From assembly GCA_030445275.1 (NCBI GenBank), contig JAUCSE010000031.1:1-64000 (forward strand): 64,000 nucleotides of DNA. The letters run 5' to 3'. The notes below the pieces were generated by a model. It searched no databases. It was not told the DNA's origin and saw only the letters and a program-made list of their open reading frames with translations. Positions 31,967-40,296 of the stretch are shown here, piece by piece (positions within the stretch are counted from its first letter, which is position 1; every line of letters begins with the position of its first letter). The translations under genes were made by a program, and so were the position numbers. Origin of the DNA: Mucilaginibacter sp. (lineage in GTDB: Bacteria; Bacteroidota; Bacteroidia; Sphingobacteriales; Sphingobacteriaceae).

Positions 31967-32860
31967 TCAGGCTGATTGTCTTTTATCGCCAACCAGGTTA
32001 CGCATAAATCTTTTACGGTAATTGAGCGGACTCAAATTCATTTTGGCCTTAAACATTTTGTAAAAATGCGATACATCACCAAAACCACTTTCGAACGATA
32101 TCTCGGATATAGGCTTATCGGTTTGCACCAGTTGTTGTATGGCGTAATTTAACCGGTACTCAATAATGGTTTCCATAAACGTTTTGCGGGTTACTTTTTT
32201 AAAGTATTTACAAAACGCATTGGTGGTCATGTTAGCTATACTCGCGGCGGCATCCAACGAAACCTGTTTCCTGAAATTTTCAACAAGATAAGCCAATACC
32301 GGGTTTATACGCTCGCGCTCGGTTAGGGTACGTTCGGCAATTATCCGGTGCTGATCAAGCAGTATATACTCATCTGATGATGCCATACGCTCCAATACCT
32401 CCAACAGGCATATCAGTATCCTGAAGTTACTTTTTTCTTCAACAAGCTCTAATAACAGTTTACTTACTTCGGCCTGGGTATCTGAGTGAAATAAAATCCC
32501 GCTGCCGCTTTTTTGAAAAAGCTGCTTAATATGCTGTAATTCAAATTTATTGAAAAACTCATCGCCCAAAAAAGCATCATTAAACTGAATAACAATGGCG
32601 CTGGCATCGGCAGGCATTACTTCGCCTGGCTCCAGTTTCCAACAGTGCGGCAGGTTTGGTCCAAGCAATACCAGATCGCCTGAAACAAAATCCTCCATAT
32701 GGCTGCCAACATACCGTTTACCGCTACCTTTTATAACGCACGTTAGTTCATATTCATCATGAAAATGGTAAGGGGCATCAAATGCCAGTTTATCAAATTT
32801 CCTGACAAGGAATGATTGACTGTTTGCGGGTTGAAGTACTTCGTACGAGGCCTTGATCAT
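31967..32860 (-). CDS. AraC-family regulator with N-terminal cupin-like domain
   Basis: FHDEYELTCVIKGSG cupin; AASIANMTTNAFCKYFKKVTRKTF...ISEISFESGFGDVSHFYKMFK AraC HTH. Confidence 0.93.
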   Translation of the reverse strand: MIKASYEVLQPANSQSFLVRKFDKLAFDAPYHFHDEYELTCVIKGSGKRYVGSHMEDFVSGDLVLLGPNLPHCWKLEPGEVMPADASAIVIQFNDAFLGDEFFNKFELQHIKQLFQKSGSGILFHSDTQAEVSKLLLELVEEKSNFRILICLLEVLERMASSDEYILLDQHRIIAERTLTERERINPVLAYLVENFRKQVSLDAAASIANMTTNAFCKYFKKVTRKTFMETIIEYRLNYAIQQLVQTDKPISEISFESGFGDVSHFYKMFKAKMNLSPLNYRKRFMRNLVGDKRQSA

Positions 32861-32987: not shown

Positions 32988-33809
32988 ATGAATACGCAGT
33001 CACCCTATTTGCCTGAGTTAGATAGTTTTAAAAAATTGCCTGAAGAAGTCATTCAGGAGTTCGGCCAGAAGGGGCATACACTTATTAAAAATGTGCTTTC
33101 AAAGCATGAAATAGAGGCCTACAGACCTGTAATTGTGGATGCGACGAACAGATACAATACCGAAAAACGCAAGCTACAGGAAAGGGATACTTATGGTAAA
33201 GCTTTTTTGCAGATCATGAATTTATGGCGGGTTGATACCGATAGTAAAAAGTTTGTTACATCCAGGCGTTTGGCAAAAATAGCTGCCGATTTAATGGGGG
33301 TTAAAAATGTAAGACTGTATCATGACCAGGCCTTGTTTAAAGAACCAGGCGGAGGTCCTACACCATGGCATCAGGATCAATACTACTGGCCAATTGACAC
33401 CAACAACACCGTAACCATGTGGATGCCCCTGGTTGATATTGATGTGGAGATGGGTATGCTCACCTTCGCCTCAGGATCATACGTTAACGGGGCGATTTTT
33501 AACCATGAGATTTCTGATGAGTCTGAAACCTTATTTGATGATTATGTGAAGGAAAAACAGTTTGCCATTAGCAGGGCTAAAACCATGAAAGCCGGCGATG
33601 CCACCTGGCACCGTGGTTTTACCATACATAACGCCCCCGGTAATAACTCCGATAAAATGCGCGAGGTGATGACCATTATTTATGTGGCCGATGGCGCCCG
33701 TATTACACCCCACAAAAACGAATGGCAAAAGAACGACCATGAAAAATGGCTAATGGGTAAACCCATTGGCGGGCTTATTGATTCGGAGTTGAATCCGAGG
33801 TTGCTGTGA
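32988..33809 (+). CDS. Phytanoyl-CoA dioxygenase (PhyH)-family protein
   Basis: PTPWHQDQYYWPID (HxD) and WHRGFTIHNAPGNNS Fe/2OG motifs. Confidence 0.92.
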   Translation: MNTQSPYLPELDSFKKLPEEVIQEFGQKGHTLIKNVLSKHEIEAYRPVIVDATNRYNTEKRKLQERDTYGKAFLQIMNLWRVDTDSKKFVTSRRLAKIAADLMGVKNVRLYHDQALFKEPGGGPTPWHQDQYYWPIDTNNTVTMWMPLVDIDVEMGMLTFASGSYVNGAIFNHEISDESETLFDDYVKEKQFAISRAKTMKAGDATWHRGFTIHNAPGNNSDKMREVMTIIYVADGARITPHKNEWQKNDHEKWLMGKPIGGLIDSELNPRLL

Positions 33810-33937: not shown

Positions 33938-34930
33938 TTATGCAGCCATCCAAATGGCATCAATAAACCATTTTTTGGTGTCAAAAAACTGGCCGACCGG
34001 CACAAAACCAGCATTTATAGCTATCTGATCGGTTTGCATAATGGTGAACTTCTGGGAAATCTCCATGTAAATGTATTCGTCTTTTAAAAACGATATGGTT
34101 TCCTTGCCATTGATGGTTACCTGCTGGTCTTGCAAACTGATGAGATAGCTTTTGCATGCACCAGATTCAGGATCATAGGTAGGATAATGGTCAAACTTGC
34201 TGATATCAAAATTTGAGTTCAGCTCCCTGTTAATGCGCTCCAACAGGTTCAAGTTAAATCTTTTGGTAATGCCTCCTTTATCGTTATAAGCAGCCAGCAC
34301 AATTTTCGGATCTTTCTTAAGGTCCATACCAATCAGCGCCATATCCCCCTCAGACAGGTGCTTGCGCAGTTCGCGGCAAAACTCAATGGCATCGTTTACA
34401 GGCATGTTGCCAATGTTCGATCCTAAGAATAACACCACTTTACGCTTTGATGAAATCGACGCAGCTTTTGTAAGCATGTCAAAGTACTCGCCGTTAAGGC
34501 CGGTAATTTTGATGCCAGGCAAGGTAACAGGCAATGATATATTGAGGTATGATATTACATTTTCAGAAATATCAATAGGCAGATAAGTAAAATCGGCCTT
34601 TTTCTCAAGCAGGTACTTAAGCAGGTAGGTTGATTTGGTGGCATCACCCGCACCCAGTTCAATCAGGTCAAAAGCATCCCCATCAGCAATAATAGCCTCG
34701 CCAAGCTCTGCCGTTTTTTCCGAAAATATTTCCAGTTCACAATCGGTTGGATAATATTCAGGACTGTTCATCAGCTCCTGGAAAAGTTTATCGCCATTGG
34801 CATCATAAAAATATTTTGAATTTAAACGCTTAGGGGTTGATCTTAACCCGGCTATAACATCATTATAAAACAGGTCGTTCTTTGCTTTTAATGAGTCGTT
34901 CAATTCCGTTTGTGCTAAGGTTGAGTCCAT
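33938..34930 (-). CDS. egtD: L-histidine N-alpha-methyltransferase EgtD
   Basis: PKRLNSKYFYDANGDKLFQELMNSPEYYPTDCE; DLIELGAGDATKSTYLL; VVLFLGSNIGNMP. Confidence 0.93.
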   Translation of the reverse strand: MDSTLAQTELNDSLKAKNDLFYNDVIAGLRSTPKRLNSKYFYDANGDKLFQELMNSPEYYPTDCELEIFSEKTAELGEAIIADGDAFDLIELGAGDATKSTYLLKYLLEKKADFTYLPIDISENVISYLNISLPVTLPGIKITGLNGEYFDMLTKAASISSKRKVVLFLGSNIGNMPVNDAIEFCRELRKHLSEGDMALIGMDLKKDPKIVLAAYNDKGGITKRFNLNLLERINRELNSNFDISKFDHYPTYDPESGACKSYLISLQDQQVTINGKETISFLKDEYIYMEISQKFTIMQTDQIAINAGFVPVGQFFDTKKWFIDAIWMAA

Positions 34931-34953: not shown

Positions 34954-36102
34954 TTACCTTGCAAGCCTTATGCCAGTAAATTGCCAGCGTAAATTTGTCT
35001 GAAAAAAATTGCGGTAAGTAATACGGCTATGCCCCGGCGATGTAGCCTCTGACGCGCCGCGCAGTACCTTTTGATTTACCATGAATTTGCCATTATACTC
35101 GCCAATAGCGCCCGGCGCCTTGGCAAAGCCCGGATAAGGCAGGTACGAGCTTTCTGTCCACTCCCAGCTTTTGCCCCAGCTAAACTTTGTTGCGGCAGCC
35201 TCCCACTCAAACTCGGTAGGCAACCGGAGGCCCTTCCATGAGGCATAGGCATAAGCCTCAAAATAACTGATATGGCATACCGGATTATTTAAATGAAGCG
35301 GCTCCAGGCCATGAAAAGTATAGTTGTTCCATTCGCCATCAATTAAATGCCAGTAAAGCGGCGCCTCTACCTGGTTGGTTTTAACCCAGTCCCAGCCTTC
35401 GGCATGCCAGTGGCGAAAATCATGATAACCACCGCTGTTTATAAATTCCAGGTATTCGGCATTGGTAACCAGATTCGGGCTTATTTCATAGGCATTTAAA
35501 TACACCTTATGGCGATTAAGCTCATTATCAAAACAAAAGCCTTCGCCCTCAAAACCTACCTCATAAACCCCTTCATTCACCTTAATAAACTCCGGATCTA
35601 CCGCTTGCACCTTTGTCGACACATAGCTTGTGGAATATGCCGGAAACAGGGGATTATGCCCTAAAATGTATTTGATATCGGTTAATAAAAGCTCCTGGTG
35701 TTGTTCTTCGTGGTTAAAGCCCAGAATGATGAGTTCCTTAACATCATCGGCAGGTTCCGCACTCAGAAACTTTTCCATAGCCTCATCAACATATGCCCGG
35801 TACTGATAAATATCATTAACGGTTGGTCTGCTTAAATTCCCCCTGTCTGTACGGATCACGCGGTTGCCAACGGTTTCGTAATAACTGTTAAATACGTAAT
35901 TGTAGTTTGAATTAAACTCCTCATAGCCCATAAAATAGGGTTTCAGGATAAAAGTTTCGAAAAACCAGGTGGTGTGCCCGATATGCCATTTAGGCGGACT
36001 AACATCAACCACAGGCTGTACCACGTAGTCTTCTGTTTGCAAAGGGCTGCAAATGTACTCCGTACGCTGGCGAACTTTTTTATAACGATCAACTAAATTC
36101 AT
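34954..36102 (-). CDS. egtB: Ergothioneine biosynthesis sulfoxide synthase EgtB
   Basis: WHIGHTTWFFETFIL; GFNHEEQHQELLLTDIKYI iron ligands; FGE-sulfatase fold C-terminus (RLPTEFEWEAAATKFSWGKSWEWTESSY). Confidence 0.95.
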   Translation of the reverse strand: MNLVDRYKKVRQRTEYICSPLQTEDYVVQPVVDVSPPKWHIGHTTWFFETFILKPYFMGYEEFNSNYNYVFNSYYETVGNRVIRTDRGNLSRPTVNDIYQYRAYVDEAMEKFLSAEPADDVKELIILGFNHEEQHQELLLTDIKYILGHNPLFPAYSTSYVSTKVQAVDPEFIKVNEGVYEVGFEGEGFCFDNELNRHKVYLNAYEISPNLVTNAEYLEFINSGGYHDFRHWHAEGWDWVKTNQVEAPLYWHLIDGEWNNYTFHGLEPLHLNNPVCHISYFEAYAYASWKGLRLPTEFEWEAAATKFSWGKSWEWTESSYLPYPGFAKAPGAIGEYNGKFMVNQKVLRGASEATSPGHSRITYRNFFQTNLRWQFTGIRLAR

Positions 36103-36106
36103 GAAA

Positions 36107-37678
36107 CTACTTACTATTCAAATACCGTTTGAGGCTTGAAATTGTTTTAATATTTAAGCTTTTTGCCTGCTGCTCCCGCATCATTAAAGCATAGGCATTA
36201 TTAAACCCAATGGGTTTTAACCACTTTATCTGGTATCTTTTTTTAAACTCCTGCTGCACATAATTGTAAGTGCTGTCCTTATTTTTTGTTACCTCCGTAA
36301 TGATTTTTGGCGATGCCTGTAATATGGCCAGCAAGCCAGTACCTGTGTATTCCGGATAAAAATCAATCTGATCATTTGTCAAGGCATCAAAGCAAATTTT
36401 GGTACCTCCTAAGCCCGTTTTTGTTGATACATTATAATTGGTATATCCCTTTATCAGCATGCTGTATATGTTGGCCAGTATATATTGCTCGCCAAATATT
36501 TTTGAGCCAATACGCACTATCCCTCCATTCCCTTCACGCGATGTTTTCCAAAGCTTATGTACTACCAAAAAATCTTTGGCCACACGTTCCGGGCTTTGGT
36601 GAAGATAATCAGTACGGTAATTTAAATCGGTCATCACGGAATCATTTATTTTACCGGAGAGCAGATTTAGTGTTTTTTCGAGCTCAGGGAATTTCCGGAG
36701 CGCATCTTCGCGCACGATAGGCGCTGCATAATAGGGTGGGAATATACCTTTATCGTCATCCAAAACAACCAAACCGTATGCCTTCAAACGCCCATCGGTT
36801 GAGTAGCCGCTGATCACATCCAGTTGTTTTTCATAAGCCGCTTTATACATCACCGCATCGCTGATCACAATGGTGTGGATCTTTAGTCCGTATTTGCTCT
36901 CCAAACCCAGGTTGCCATCCTGCCGGCCCATAAACTCGGGCGTAAAGCCTGCGGTAAGTTTACCACCATAAGCCGATGGAATAAAATAAAGGGACGACAG
37001 TAAAAAAAGCAAAACTGGTAAAGCATAAGCTACACGTCTGACTTTTTTAAAGTTGAGTTTTTGTATCAGCGATAGCAGAAAATCAAAAATAATAGCCAGC
37101 AACGCGGCCGGAATAGCCCCAGCCAGTATCATGTTGGTATTGTTAAGCGATATACCACCGAATATAAACTCGCCCAGGCCACCTGCGGCTATGTATGATG
37201 CCAGTGTTGCTACACCAACATTGATCACCGTAGCGGTACGGATACCGGCCAAAATCACGGGCATAGCCAGGGGCAGCTCCACCTTGAACAATATTTGCCA
37301 CTTACTCATACCCATAGCCACGGCGGCCTCCTTCACCGATGCATCAACACCGGTAATACCTGTATAGGTATTGCGGATGATGGGGAGCAGCGCGTACAGC
37401 AGCAGAGCAACAATAGCGGGCTTAGCGCCAATACCTAATATGGGTATCATAAAACCAAGCAGGGCAATACTTGGTATGGTTTGCAATATACCGGCAACAC
37501 CCAAAACCGACCCTGATAGTTTTTTTTTACGGGCGATGAAAATACCCAGCGGCAAACCAATAAGTACCGCAATAAAAAGCGATATAAAGGTAAGCCCTAT
37601 ATGCTGCAGGGTTTGTACGGCAAGCTTATCTGATTGCTGCTGCATAAACTCCAACAAGGTTTGCTGACGCTCATTCAT
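36107..37678 (-). CDS. Fused ABC permease / substrate-binding protein of the OpuC/EgtU type, binding domain in permuted order
   Basis: N-terminal BPD_transp_1 permease (VKEAAVAMGMSKWQILFKVELPLAMPVILAGIRTATV); then STDGRL...DDDKGIFPPYYAAP before VRIGSKIFGEQYIL...IDFYPEYTGTG. Confidence 0.9.
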   Translation of the reverse strand: MNERQQTLLEFMQQQSDKLAVQTLQHIGLTFISLFIAVLIGLPLGIFIARKKKLSGSVLGVAGILQTIPSIALLGFMIPILGIGAKPAIVALLLYALLPIIRNTYTGITGVDASVKEAAVAMGMSKWQILFKVELPLAMPVILAGIRTATVINVGVATLASYIAAGGLGEFIFGGISLNNTNMILAGAIPAALLAIIFDFLLSLIQKLNFKKVRRVAYALPVLLFLLSSLYFIPSAYGGKLTAGFTPEFMGRQDGNLGLESKYGLKIHTIVISDAVMYKAAYEKQLDVISGYSTDGRLKAYGLVVLDDDKGIFPPYYAAPIVREDALRKFPELEKTLNLLSGKINDSVMTDLNYRTDYLHQSPERVAKDFLVVHKLWKTSREGNGGIVRIGSKIFGEQYILANIYSMLIKGYTNYNVSTKTGLGGTKICFDALTNDQIDFYPEYTGTGLLAILQASPKIITEVTKNKDSTYNYVQQEFKKRYQIKWLKPIGFNNAYALMMREQQAKSLNIKTISSLKRYLNSK

Positions 37679-38628
37679 GCCTGTTTGTTTTTATATTGAT
37701 TAAAAGCCGACATGAGCTGCTCAAAACCAATGGTTTTTATTTCGTTTTGCTCATTCCTGATATCAATAGTTTCGGCATTATGAAAGCGGAGCAGCTCCAA
37801 AGCCGACCATATATCGGTATTTGCCGGTAGGGCATGAGCCTTATCTTTTTGATGATCTGGCAGCAAGGGCCACAGATCTATGAGTTTGATGGCCTTAAAT
37901 TCCAATTGCAAACGCTGATCCTCTAAAAAATCTTTCACAAACTTATTGGCGGGTTTAAACAACAGATCGGCAGGGGTGCCTGATTGTATGATCGTGCCTT
38001 TATCCATAAGGCATATCCTGTTACCCAGTTCAAAGGCTTCCTGCACATCGTGGGTAACCATGATAATGGTTTTCCGTGTCAGCTCATCCAACGCTTTAAA
38101 CTCCTTTTGAATATTGGCCCGGGTAACATTATCCAATGCGCCAAAAGGTTCGTCCATCAACAAAACCGGCGGATCAGATACCAATGCCCTCGCCAAACCA
38201 ATCCGCTGCTGCTGGCCACCACTTAATTCATTGGGATAAACGTGCAGGTAATCGGCGGTCAGATGCAGCTTTTCCATCAGTTCGGCCGTGCGATTTTCGG
38301 TTTTCTTTTTATCCCATTTTAGTAGATTGGGTACAATGGCAATGTTTTCGGCTACTGTATAATGCGGAAACAGACCATTGTTTTGCAATACATAACCAAT
38401 GCTTCGCCGCAAGGTTTCAGGTTGCTCATCAGCAATATTTTTACCGTTAATGAAAATATTACCGCTGGTGGGTTCTATCAACCGGTTTATCATTTTAAGC
38501 GTTGTGGTTTTGCCGCAACCGCTGGTACCCAGCAATATCAGGTTTTCCTGCTCCTGAACCTCAAACGAGATCGAATCAACCGCCTTAGTTTTACCAAAAT
38601 GTTTGCTTACACTATCAACCTTTATCAT
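37675..38628 (-). CDS. ABC transporter ATP-binding protein (OpuBA/EgtV-type)
   Basis: LLGTSGCGKTTTLKMIN Walker A; LSGGQQQRIGLARAL signature; LLMDEPFGALD Walker B; CBS-like C-terminal tail. Confidence 0.93.
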   Translation of the reverse strand: MIKVDSVSKHFGKTKAVDSISFEVQEQENLILLGTSGCGKTTTLKMINRLIEPTSGNIFINGKNIADEQPETLRRSIGYVLQNNGLFPHYTVAENIAIVPNLLKWDKKKTENRTAELMEKLHLTADYLHVYPNELSGGQQQRIGLARALVSDPPVLLMDEPFGALDNVTRANIQKEFKALDELTRKTIIMVTHDVQEAFELGNRICLMDKGTIIQSGTPADLLFKPANKFVKDFLEDQRLQLEFKAIKLIDLWPLLPDHQKDKAHALPANTDIWSALELLRFHNAETIDIRNEQNEIKTIGFEQLMSAFNQYKNKQA

Positions 38629-40013
38629 TAATCCTCCAGGGTCATAAACAGGTTATTCAATGATTCGGAATACAGCGGATGCGCAAATACACAATACCGT
38701 ATTCGATCATAAGTAATGCCGCCCTCCATGGCCATTTGTAGTACGGTCATGATTTCGCCACCTTCGGGACCTAACACGGCCACGCCCAATATCTTTTTGG
38801 TTTTTATATCAACAATAGCCTTCATAAATCCACGGGTATCTCCGGTTTCAATAGCCCTGGCCACGTGTGCCATGGGCAATTTCGCAACCTTGTAATTCAG
38901 ACCCTTTTCCTTAGCTTCTGTTTCGCTGATCCCTATCCTGCCCAGTTGCGGGTCGGTGAACATACAATAGGGCACAGGTCTATCGTTTATATTCAGGTTT
39001 TGCTTTTCGATCAGGTTACGATAAACAATGGTATAATCGTTATAAGAAATATGCGTAAACGCCGGACCGCCTTTTACATCGCCTAAAGCATAGATACCAG
39101 GGGCAGTAGTTTCCAACTTATCGTTTACTTTAATATTCCCCTTTTCATCGGTATCGATGCCTGCTATTGGCAGGTTCAGTGCTTCAGTTTGTGGGGTGCG
39201 ACCAACCGCGACCAATACATGCGAGCATTTGATCTTTTTTTCTTCGCCATTGGCTGATACGGTAACTGTTATTTTTCCACCTGTATTCTGCTTAAATTTA
39301 GTGGGCTTAGCATTGGCGTGTATTGTTATCTTCTCTGCTTCCAATATCTTCAGCATTTCGGCAGAGATATCTTCGTCCTCATGAAATACTATCCGCGATG
39401 ATTTTTCCAATATGGTAACCTTACTGCCAAACCTGCGGAACATTTGCCCAAACTCCAGTCCGATGTAATTGCCACCCAGCACCAGTAAGTGTTCGGGGAC
39501 ATAGTCAAGGTCAAGTATGGTGGTTGAGTTAAGGTAGTCAATATCACTTAACCCTTCAATTTCAGGAATAAAGGGTTTTGCACCGGGGTTTAAAAATATA
39601 AGATCGGCTTGTAATACCTGTTTTTTGCCATCGTTAAGATTTACTGAAATAGTTTTATCGCCGGTAAAAGTAGCTTCGCCAAACAGTACATCCAGATTCT
39701 TTGTTTTTTCGGCCGCGTGTAAACCACCGTTTCTTGACCGCAGCACAATCTCGTCCTTACGCTTTTTTATTTGCGGCATATTTACCGAGAAACGTTTAAC
39801 AGGCACGCCTAATTCACTGCTTTTACCAGCCATATAAGCGGCCTTTGCCGATGCCACCCAGGTTTTGGTAGGTGTACAACCATCATTTACACAGGTACCG
39901 CCATAAAACCGTTTTTCAATGATCACGGTTTTTTTACCTGCCATCGCTAGCTTTTTGGCCAGCGGAGCGCCGGCCTGACCGGCACCTATGATAATGGCAT
40001 CGTATTTTTTCAT
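38628..40013 (-). CDS. FAD-dependent pyridine nucleotide-disulfide oxidoreductase, mercuric-reductase/Lpd-like
   Basis: IIIGAGQAGAPLAKKLA; redox motif GGTCVNDGCTPTK; LVLGGNYIGLEFGQMFRRFG; YALGDVKGGPAFTH. Confidence 0.93.
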   Translation of the reverse strand: MKKYDAIIIGAGQAGAPLAKKLAMAGKKTVIIEKRFYGGTCVNDGCTPTKTWVASAKAAYMAGKSSELGVPVKRFSVNMPQIKKRKDEIVLRSRNGGLHAAEKTKNLDVLFGEATFTGDKTISVNLNDGKKQVLQADLIFLNPGAKPFIPEIEGLSDIDYLNSTTILDLDYVPEHLLVLGGNYIGLEFGQMFRRFGSKVTILEKSSRIVFHEDEDISAEMLKILEAEKITIHANAKPTKFKQNTGGKITVTVSANGEEKKIKCSHVLVAVGRTPQTEALNLPIAGIDTDEKGNIKVNDKLETTAPGIYALGDVKGGPAFTHISYNDYTIVYRNLIEKQNLNINDRPVPYCMFTDPQLGRIGISETEAKEKGLNYKVAKLPMAHVARAIETGDTRGFMKAIVDIKTKKILGVAVLGPEGGEIMTVLQMAMEGGITYDRIRYCVFAHPLYSESLNNLFMTLED

Positions 40014-40014
40014 A

Positions 40015-40296
40015 TCATTCGGTTACTTTAACGCCTTTCCAAAACGCTATATAATTGGTAATGTGAGTGGCTGTTTCTTTAGGCTGCGGATAATACCAGG
40101 CTGCATCCTGATTCTGCTTTCCATTAACGTTAAGGTTATAATAGGATGCCAAACCTTTCCACGGACAGGTGCTTTTGGTTTCGCACTCCTCCAAAAATTC
40201 GGCTTTTACACTTTCTTTAGGGAAATAGTGGTTATTTTCGACTATAATAGTATCATTACTCTCAGCTATAACCTGATCGTTCCAAATTGCTTTCAT
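40015..40296 (-). CDS. DUF427 domain protein
   Basis: MKAIWNDQVIAESNDTIIVENNHYFPKESV...STCPWKGLASYYNL...AAWYYPQPKE. Confidence 0.9.
   Translation of the reverse strand: MKAIWNDQVIAESNDTIIVENNHYFPKESVKAEFLEECETKSTCPWKGLASYYNLNVNGKQNQDAAWYYPQPKETATHITNYIAFWKGVKVTE

Follow-up and report, generated by a model that had tools for sequence, protein, structure and literature searches.

A circularly permuted substrate-binding domain in a permease fusion encoded in an egt operon of Mucilaginibacter

Within the window, a stretch of 64,000 nucleotides from Mucilaginibacter sp. (contig JAUCSE010000031.1), we identified a permease fused to a substrate-binding domain (SBD) that is circularly permuted. By sequence, profile order and predicted fold, this SBD is one cluster F domain with its halves exchanged and its old termini joined. 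We think it quite probable that the protein is the permease chain of a type I ABC importer and bears a permuted OpuC/EgtU-type (cluster F-III-like) SBD, that the permutation arose in a single event and that the likely cargo is a histidine betaine.

The open reading frame at 36107-37678, whose minus strand and coordinates were confirmed exactly, encodes 523 residues consisting of a permease domain (PF00528, residues 41-215) followed by a PF04069 (OpuAC) match in two stretches, which at 188.4 bits against a gathering score of 21.2 places the SBD in the OpuAC family. The stretch nearer the permease (36566-36961, E = 1.5e-29) covers profile positions 114-255, while the stretch at the C-terminal end (36110-36517, E = 4.1e-24) covers positions 3-114; the second half of the profile precedes its first. 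An earlier note, made from the letters alone, had described this reversal after the permease and placed the C-terminal half at about 36110-36517, which coincides exactly with the PF04069 match. The best solved-structure match of both halves by sequence is Streptococcus pneumoniae EgtUC (SpEgtUC), and here too the halves match in exchanged order rather than in linear correspondence, with residues 239-376 aligning to chain positions 137-274 (123.8 bits) and residues 390-518 to positions 10-134 (71.9 bits). As an order control, we re-arranged the identical 285 SBD residues into canonical order and rescored them. PF04069 then matched contiguously (profile 3-255) at 204.5 bits, whereas the native order had scored 190.7 bits over two stretches, and SpEgtUC likewise aligned in one stretch (3-274 to 10-274, 212 bits) instead of two (196.8 bits). 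Because the re-ordered halves merge into a single match and a second copy of either half was absent in 99/99 permuted loci, we read the region as one domain rather than two.

The permease (transmembrane) part comprises residues 1-235 (36974-37678, minus strand, as are all segments of the protein), and its last hydrophobic helix, at about residues 210-236, leads into the SBD. The first SBD segment (residues 239-376; 36551-36964) is the canonical C-terminal half, equivalent to SpEgtUC chain 137-274; it holds most of lobe D2 and the C-terminal part of lobe D1, including pocket residues E248, R252, Y292 and Y316. Between the aligned halves, an 11-residue linker (residues 377-387; 36518-36550) joins the old C-terminus to the old N-terminus, and 88 of the 95 relatives scored have a spacing of 18 residues from the VAKxFL motif to the IGSK motif. 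The second segment (residues 388-523; 36110-36517), equivalent to the canonical N-terminal half (SpEgtUC chain 10-134), contains the N-terminal part of D1 and the start of D2, carries K393, T426, Y444, T447, F492, N494 and Y496, and ends at the new C-terminus of the protein, TISSLKRYLNSK. The permutation cut does not separate lobe from lobe: each segment mixes parts of D1 and D2, and the pocket residues are now supplied by both exchanged halves.

Structure prediction gave a consistent picture. AlphaFold2 (AF2), run on the permuted SBD with 27 related sequences, returned a compact, confident single-domain fold rather than two domains (pLDDT 93.8, pTM 0.89), and the SBD is accordingly predicted to keep the cluster F fold of its linear relatives. 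Foldseek aligns sequentially, so its alignments report chain order. Its top five PDB matches to the model were all Bacillus subtilis OpuAC (BsOpuAC), aligned end to end over 295-300 columns (TMq 0.58-0.64) at 15-17% identity, whereas linear EgtUC aligned over only 141 columns, half its length, despite 46% identity. By comparison of PDB sequences, BsOpuAC (2b4l) is itself permuted relative to linear Lactococcus lactis OpuAC (LlOpuAC; 3l6g, 7ahc) and is cut at the same point as the protein described here; the BsOpuAC sequence used as query matched the whole of 2b4l. With NKTIIGIDPG at its start and NVNSIEDLKK at its end, BsOpuAC has its cut between helix NSIEDL and strand TIIGIDPG, for which the counterparts here are ISSLKRYLNSK and GKLTAGFTPEF. 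The topology therefore has a solved precedent in a different subfamily. A 2008 report described circular permutation in the glycine-betaine-binding proteins (PMC2395249), and the statement in the earlier note that half-swaps are known in related betaine transporters is correct on this evidence, BsOpuAC being permuted relative to LlOpuAC.

The permuted form is widespread within one phylum. We counted 99 permuted loci, found only in Bacteroidota among what was searched; these are loci and not species, and a few, L007 and L053 among them, may stem from the same or nearly the same species retrieved along two paths. Nearly all of the proteins are 519-535 residues long, with a C-terminus 24-30 residues past the hinge tyrosine. 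In 121 genomes of the family to which the Mucilaginibacter window belongs, every fused match of about 525-535 residues with both halves reported was permuted, and the full-length stand-alone binding proteins retrieved from the same genomes were linear and of OpuA type. The best 80 loci of a contig search were all permuted and came mostly from Mucilaginibacter and Pedobacter, with some from Flavobacterium, Olivibacter and others. Across 398 Bacteroidota genomes there were two fused architectures, one permuted (permease-C half-N half) and one linear with the SBD first (N half-C half-permease). The latter, an SBD-TMD arrangement, occurs in many Bacteroidota (L017-L037, L148-L167), unlike the SBD-last fusions of Bacillota. 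Searches outside Bacteroidota covered plasmids and phages, in which no permuted form was seen: plasmid-borne fusions in Bacillota, Fusobacteriota and one cyanobacterium have the order permease-N half-C half, one in Gemmatimonadota has the order N half-C half-permease, and ten of the ten retrieved plasmid examples were linear or unfused. A junction-spanning peptide searched against plasmids and phages gave, among the matches listed, only two-piece matches spanning about 780-840 bases, which is the linear order.

The permutation also moves the attachment of the SBD to the membrane. The published lobes of SpEgtUC are D1 (residues 233-331 and 445-506) and D2 (residues 341-432) (PMC9732360). With numbering derived from K242 as chain position 13, chain position 137 is residue 366, and the cut falls at about residue 365/366, inside D2. 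Both new termini therefore lie in D2, while the linker bridges the old pair in D1. Since both new termini are located in D2, the membrane tether shifts from D1 to D2, and the proposal of the earlier note that permutation changes the tethered lobe follows from the SpEgtUC boundaries. In a full-length AF2 model, the last hydrophobic helix spans about residues 210-236 and is followed by the first SBD strand from residue 242, with low confidence at 231-238 and a poor membrane part; the geometry of the tether in the membrane, and with it docking on the permease, would presumably be altered.

The gene lies fourth in a minus-strand operon, which reads from a 93-residue protein through an FAD/NAD(P) disulfide oxidoreductase, an ATPase and the permease-SBD fusion to egtB and egtD. 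The ProV-like ABC ATPase (37675-38628; PF00005) overlaps the start of the fusion and scores 310.8 bits with TIGR01186 (proV), slightly under the cut-off. Directly downstream of the fusion, the ergothioneine-synthesis gene egtB (34954-36102; DinB_2 and FGE-sulfatase domains) scores 538 bits with TIGR03440 against a cut-off of 360, and egtD (33938-34930), encoding the histidine N-alpha-methyltransferase, matches PF10017 (E = 1.6e-95) and scores 279.1 bits with TIGR03438, under the cut-off of 290.9. The oxidoreductase (38628-40013, redox motif CVNDGC) keeps its position in most of the best 80 relatives; most Sphingobacteriaceae relatives carry it in this operon, its best NCBIfam model is PRK06370-type, and its relatives include RclA, MerA and mycothione reductase. 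It could be an ergothioneine-disulfide or related reductase. The 93-residue protein encoded by the first gene (40015-40296) is conserved in the operon and had zero NCBIfam matches; it may be DUF427-like. Its homologues adjoin egt genes in other families as well (L039, L040, L041, L152). On the opposite strand to the operon lies a PhyH-type dioxygenase gene (32988-33806, plus strand), adjoined by an AraC-type regulator gene (31967-32860, minus strand).

We examined how far egt genes accompany each architecture. Of the 80 best-matching close relatives, 77 had egtB or egtD nearby, as did 12 of the 18 wider permuted loci and, among Bacteroidota loci with a linear SBD ahead of the permease, 5 of 20; the remaining 6 of the 18 had neither within the stretch read. 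Permuted transporters without egtB or egtD in the stretch read are L038 (on a short contig), L043, L044, L045, L046, L050, L131, L134 and L137. The permuted form is thus usually egt-linked, yet egt genes do not require permutation, since the linkage is also seen among the linear SBD-first loci. The earlier note had called a permuted SBD in an egt operon notable and had suggested a survey of permuted and linear forms in Bacteroidota egt loci. In our survey the claim is tempered by permutation being the rule in this clade, by the permuted loci with no egt genes nearby and by the egt-linked linear fusions elsewhere in the phylum.

We then compared the pocket with that of SpEgtUC, in which trimethylammonium, carboxylate and imidazole are held by Y341, Y419, Y443, N339, K242, T296, R379, E375 and T275 (PMC9732360). 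All nine have equivalents that do not vary across the 44 permuted sequences sampled, and the carboxylate and imidazole contacts K242, T275, T296, E375 and R379 correspond to K393, T426, T447, E248 and R252 here. The fusion of permease and SBD with a partner ATPase is likewise shared with EgtU, while the linear domain order is not. Two further features differ: G244, invariant in EgtU SBDs, is F395 in our protein (40 of the 44 permuted sequences have F here and 4 have Q), and F293/Y337 are Y444/F492, the state of AfProX-like (ProX-like) proteins. Ergothioneine binding by SpEgtUC becomes about 100-fold weaker with G244F, less so with F293Y, and about 500-fold weaker with E375Q (PMC9732360). Judged from these residues, the protein lacks two hallmarks of high-affinity EgtU, and we would not file it as EgtU in the strict sense.

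To place the permutation in the history of the family, we built trees from SBDs in canonical order. In a tree of permease plus re-ordered SBD (54 rows, with L144 and L145 left out), the permuted proteins group together in a single clade (95/92); two linear permease-first fusions lie beside it (88/81), and the Bacteroidota SBD-first fusions are distant from it. An SBD-only tree, to which OpuA-type sequences and unfused outgroups were added and which includes the very long branches L141 and L142 and the separate genes L144 and L145, does not recover the permuted set as one clade and needs two changes, with long-branched and unfused sequences intruding. In the best tree, then, the permuted clade has a single origin. 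In the canonical-order SBD-only tree, BsOpuAC groups with linear LlOpuAC (100/99) within a separate clade (100/100), and the permuted Bacteroidota sequences fall among linear EgtU/ProX-like ones. Because BsOpuAC clusters with linear LlOpuAC in a separate clade, the Bacteroidota permutation is independent of that in BsOpuAC, although made at the same cut point.

Several other accounts of the exchanged order can be weighed against this evidence. That there is no permutation, and that the region holds two independent domains or results from a gene-fusion, frameshift or assembly artefact, has a probability close to nil. Leftover duplicate halves or two separate domains are ruled out by their absence from the 99 loci, and an assembly or frame artefact by conservation of the permuted frame across relatives, the order being kept in one frame at 99 loci from independent assemblies; the region moreover has the length of a single domain and matches as one when re-ordered. 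It is very unlikely that the halves instead complement each other between the two permease chains of a dimer, forming a domain-swapped clamp: a homodimeric permease with two fused SBDs makes this possible in principle, but the single-chain AF2 model is compact and confident, and BsOpuAC, with equal order, was solved as a stand-alone binding protein. Inheritance of the order from BsOpuAC-type proteins through one shared permutation event would account for the identical cut point and the same fold order; we consider it exceedingly unlikely, as the trees separate BsOpuAC from the permuted Bacteroidota sequences, and the native sequence finds EgtUC as its best PDB match, not 2b4l at E 0.001.

The strongest competing account leaves the permutation in place and concerns the cargo. 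The protein could be a general quaternary-amine importer for glycine betaine, choline or similar compounds, with the egt operon incidental or reflecting methyl or osmotic supply, a proposal that we take seriously while doubting it. It draws on the AfProX-like four-tyrosine cage, on the phenylalanine that nearly all permuted sequences have at position 244 and on the permuted loci that lack egt genes nearby. Against it, the egtB-egtD operon is retained across most of the clade and in distant families (f1, f3, f10, f24), and the equivalents of E375, R379 and K242 are retained, though these are not exclusive to EgtU. We therefore favor a histidine betaine (ergothioneine or hercynine) as the likely cargo, taken up or recaptured with an affinity below that of SpEgtU or through other contacts, and we infer that the direction of transport is import.

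The favored history would start from an ancestor with a linear permease-SBD fusion, in which the permutation arose once, most likely when the segment encoding the SBD was duplicated in tandem and the outer halves were then lost; no intermediate of this route was found. The short linker would have joined the old D1 termini, with new ones created at a helix-strand junction in D2. Both lobes of the clamp and the aromatic cage would reassemble unchanged, and ligand capture should therefore match that of the linear proteins. The last membrane helix would run into D2, not D1, after about five residues, and ergothioneine or hercynine would be imported beside the genes that make it.

Known systems share parts of this arrangement. 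S. pneumoniae EgtU (EgtUBC; SBD 7TXK, 7TXL) is also a permease-SBD fusion with a separate ATPase, and its cage, carboxylate and E375/R379 residues are kept; however, EgtUC is linear and D1-tethered whereas the Mucilaginibacter protein is permuted and D2-tethered, lacks G244 and the F293/Y337 switch, and lies within an egt biosynthesis operon. B. subtilis OpuAC (2B4L) is permuted in the same way, its chain opened between the same helix and strand, but belongs to another sequence clade, lacks a Tyr-cage type of pocket at the mapped positions and stands alone, unfused to a permease. L. lactis OpuABC (7AHC; SBD 3L6G) carries its SBD fused behind the permease, but in linear order and of OpuA type. 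The SBD-permease fusions of Bacteroidota and Gemmatimonadota have a related permease and SBD with near-identical pocket residues, sometimes beside egtB or egtD, but place a linear SBD ahead of the permease. Treponema pallidum TpMglB-2 (Tp0684), a sugar-binding lipoprotein reported in 2016, is another natural circularly permuted binding protein, although of Type I/cluster B and with a different cut; its authors considered that tethering might account for the permuted topology (PMC4990184).

Permutation among glycine-betaine-binding proteins had already been reported, and BsOpuAC gives the topology a solved precedent. In the freely accessible literature searched, we found no report of the permuted permease-fused version, of its egt context or of independent recurrence at the same cut. 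We suggest, tentatively and with some reservation, that cluster F SBDs have been permuted at least twice independently at the same D2 helix-strand junction, and that the fused form may be kept because a D2 tether alters docking on the permease. If true, the permuted clade would offer a natural experiment for asking how ABC import is controlled by the lobe that is tethered. Fused SBDs are a test bed for the number of receptors per ABC importer and for which lobe touches which permease half, and with the same pocket, the opposite lobe tethered and linear relatives nearby, the question of the lobe becomes testable by comparison. There is also a caution for annotation, in that profile searches and similarity cut-offs split or misplace permuted proteins. 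Cluster F proteins are already in use for biosensor design, and a cut point that recurs in two distant subfamilies would mark a preferred permutation site useful for such work.
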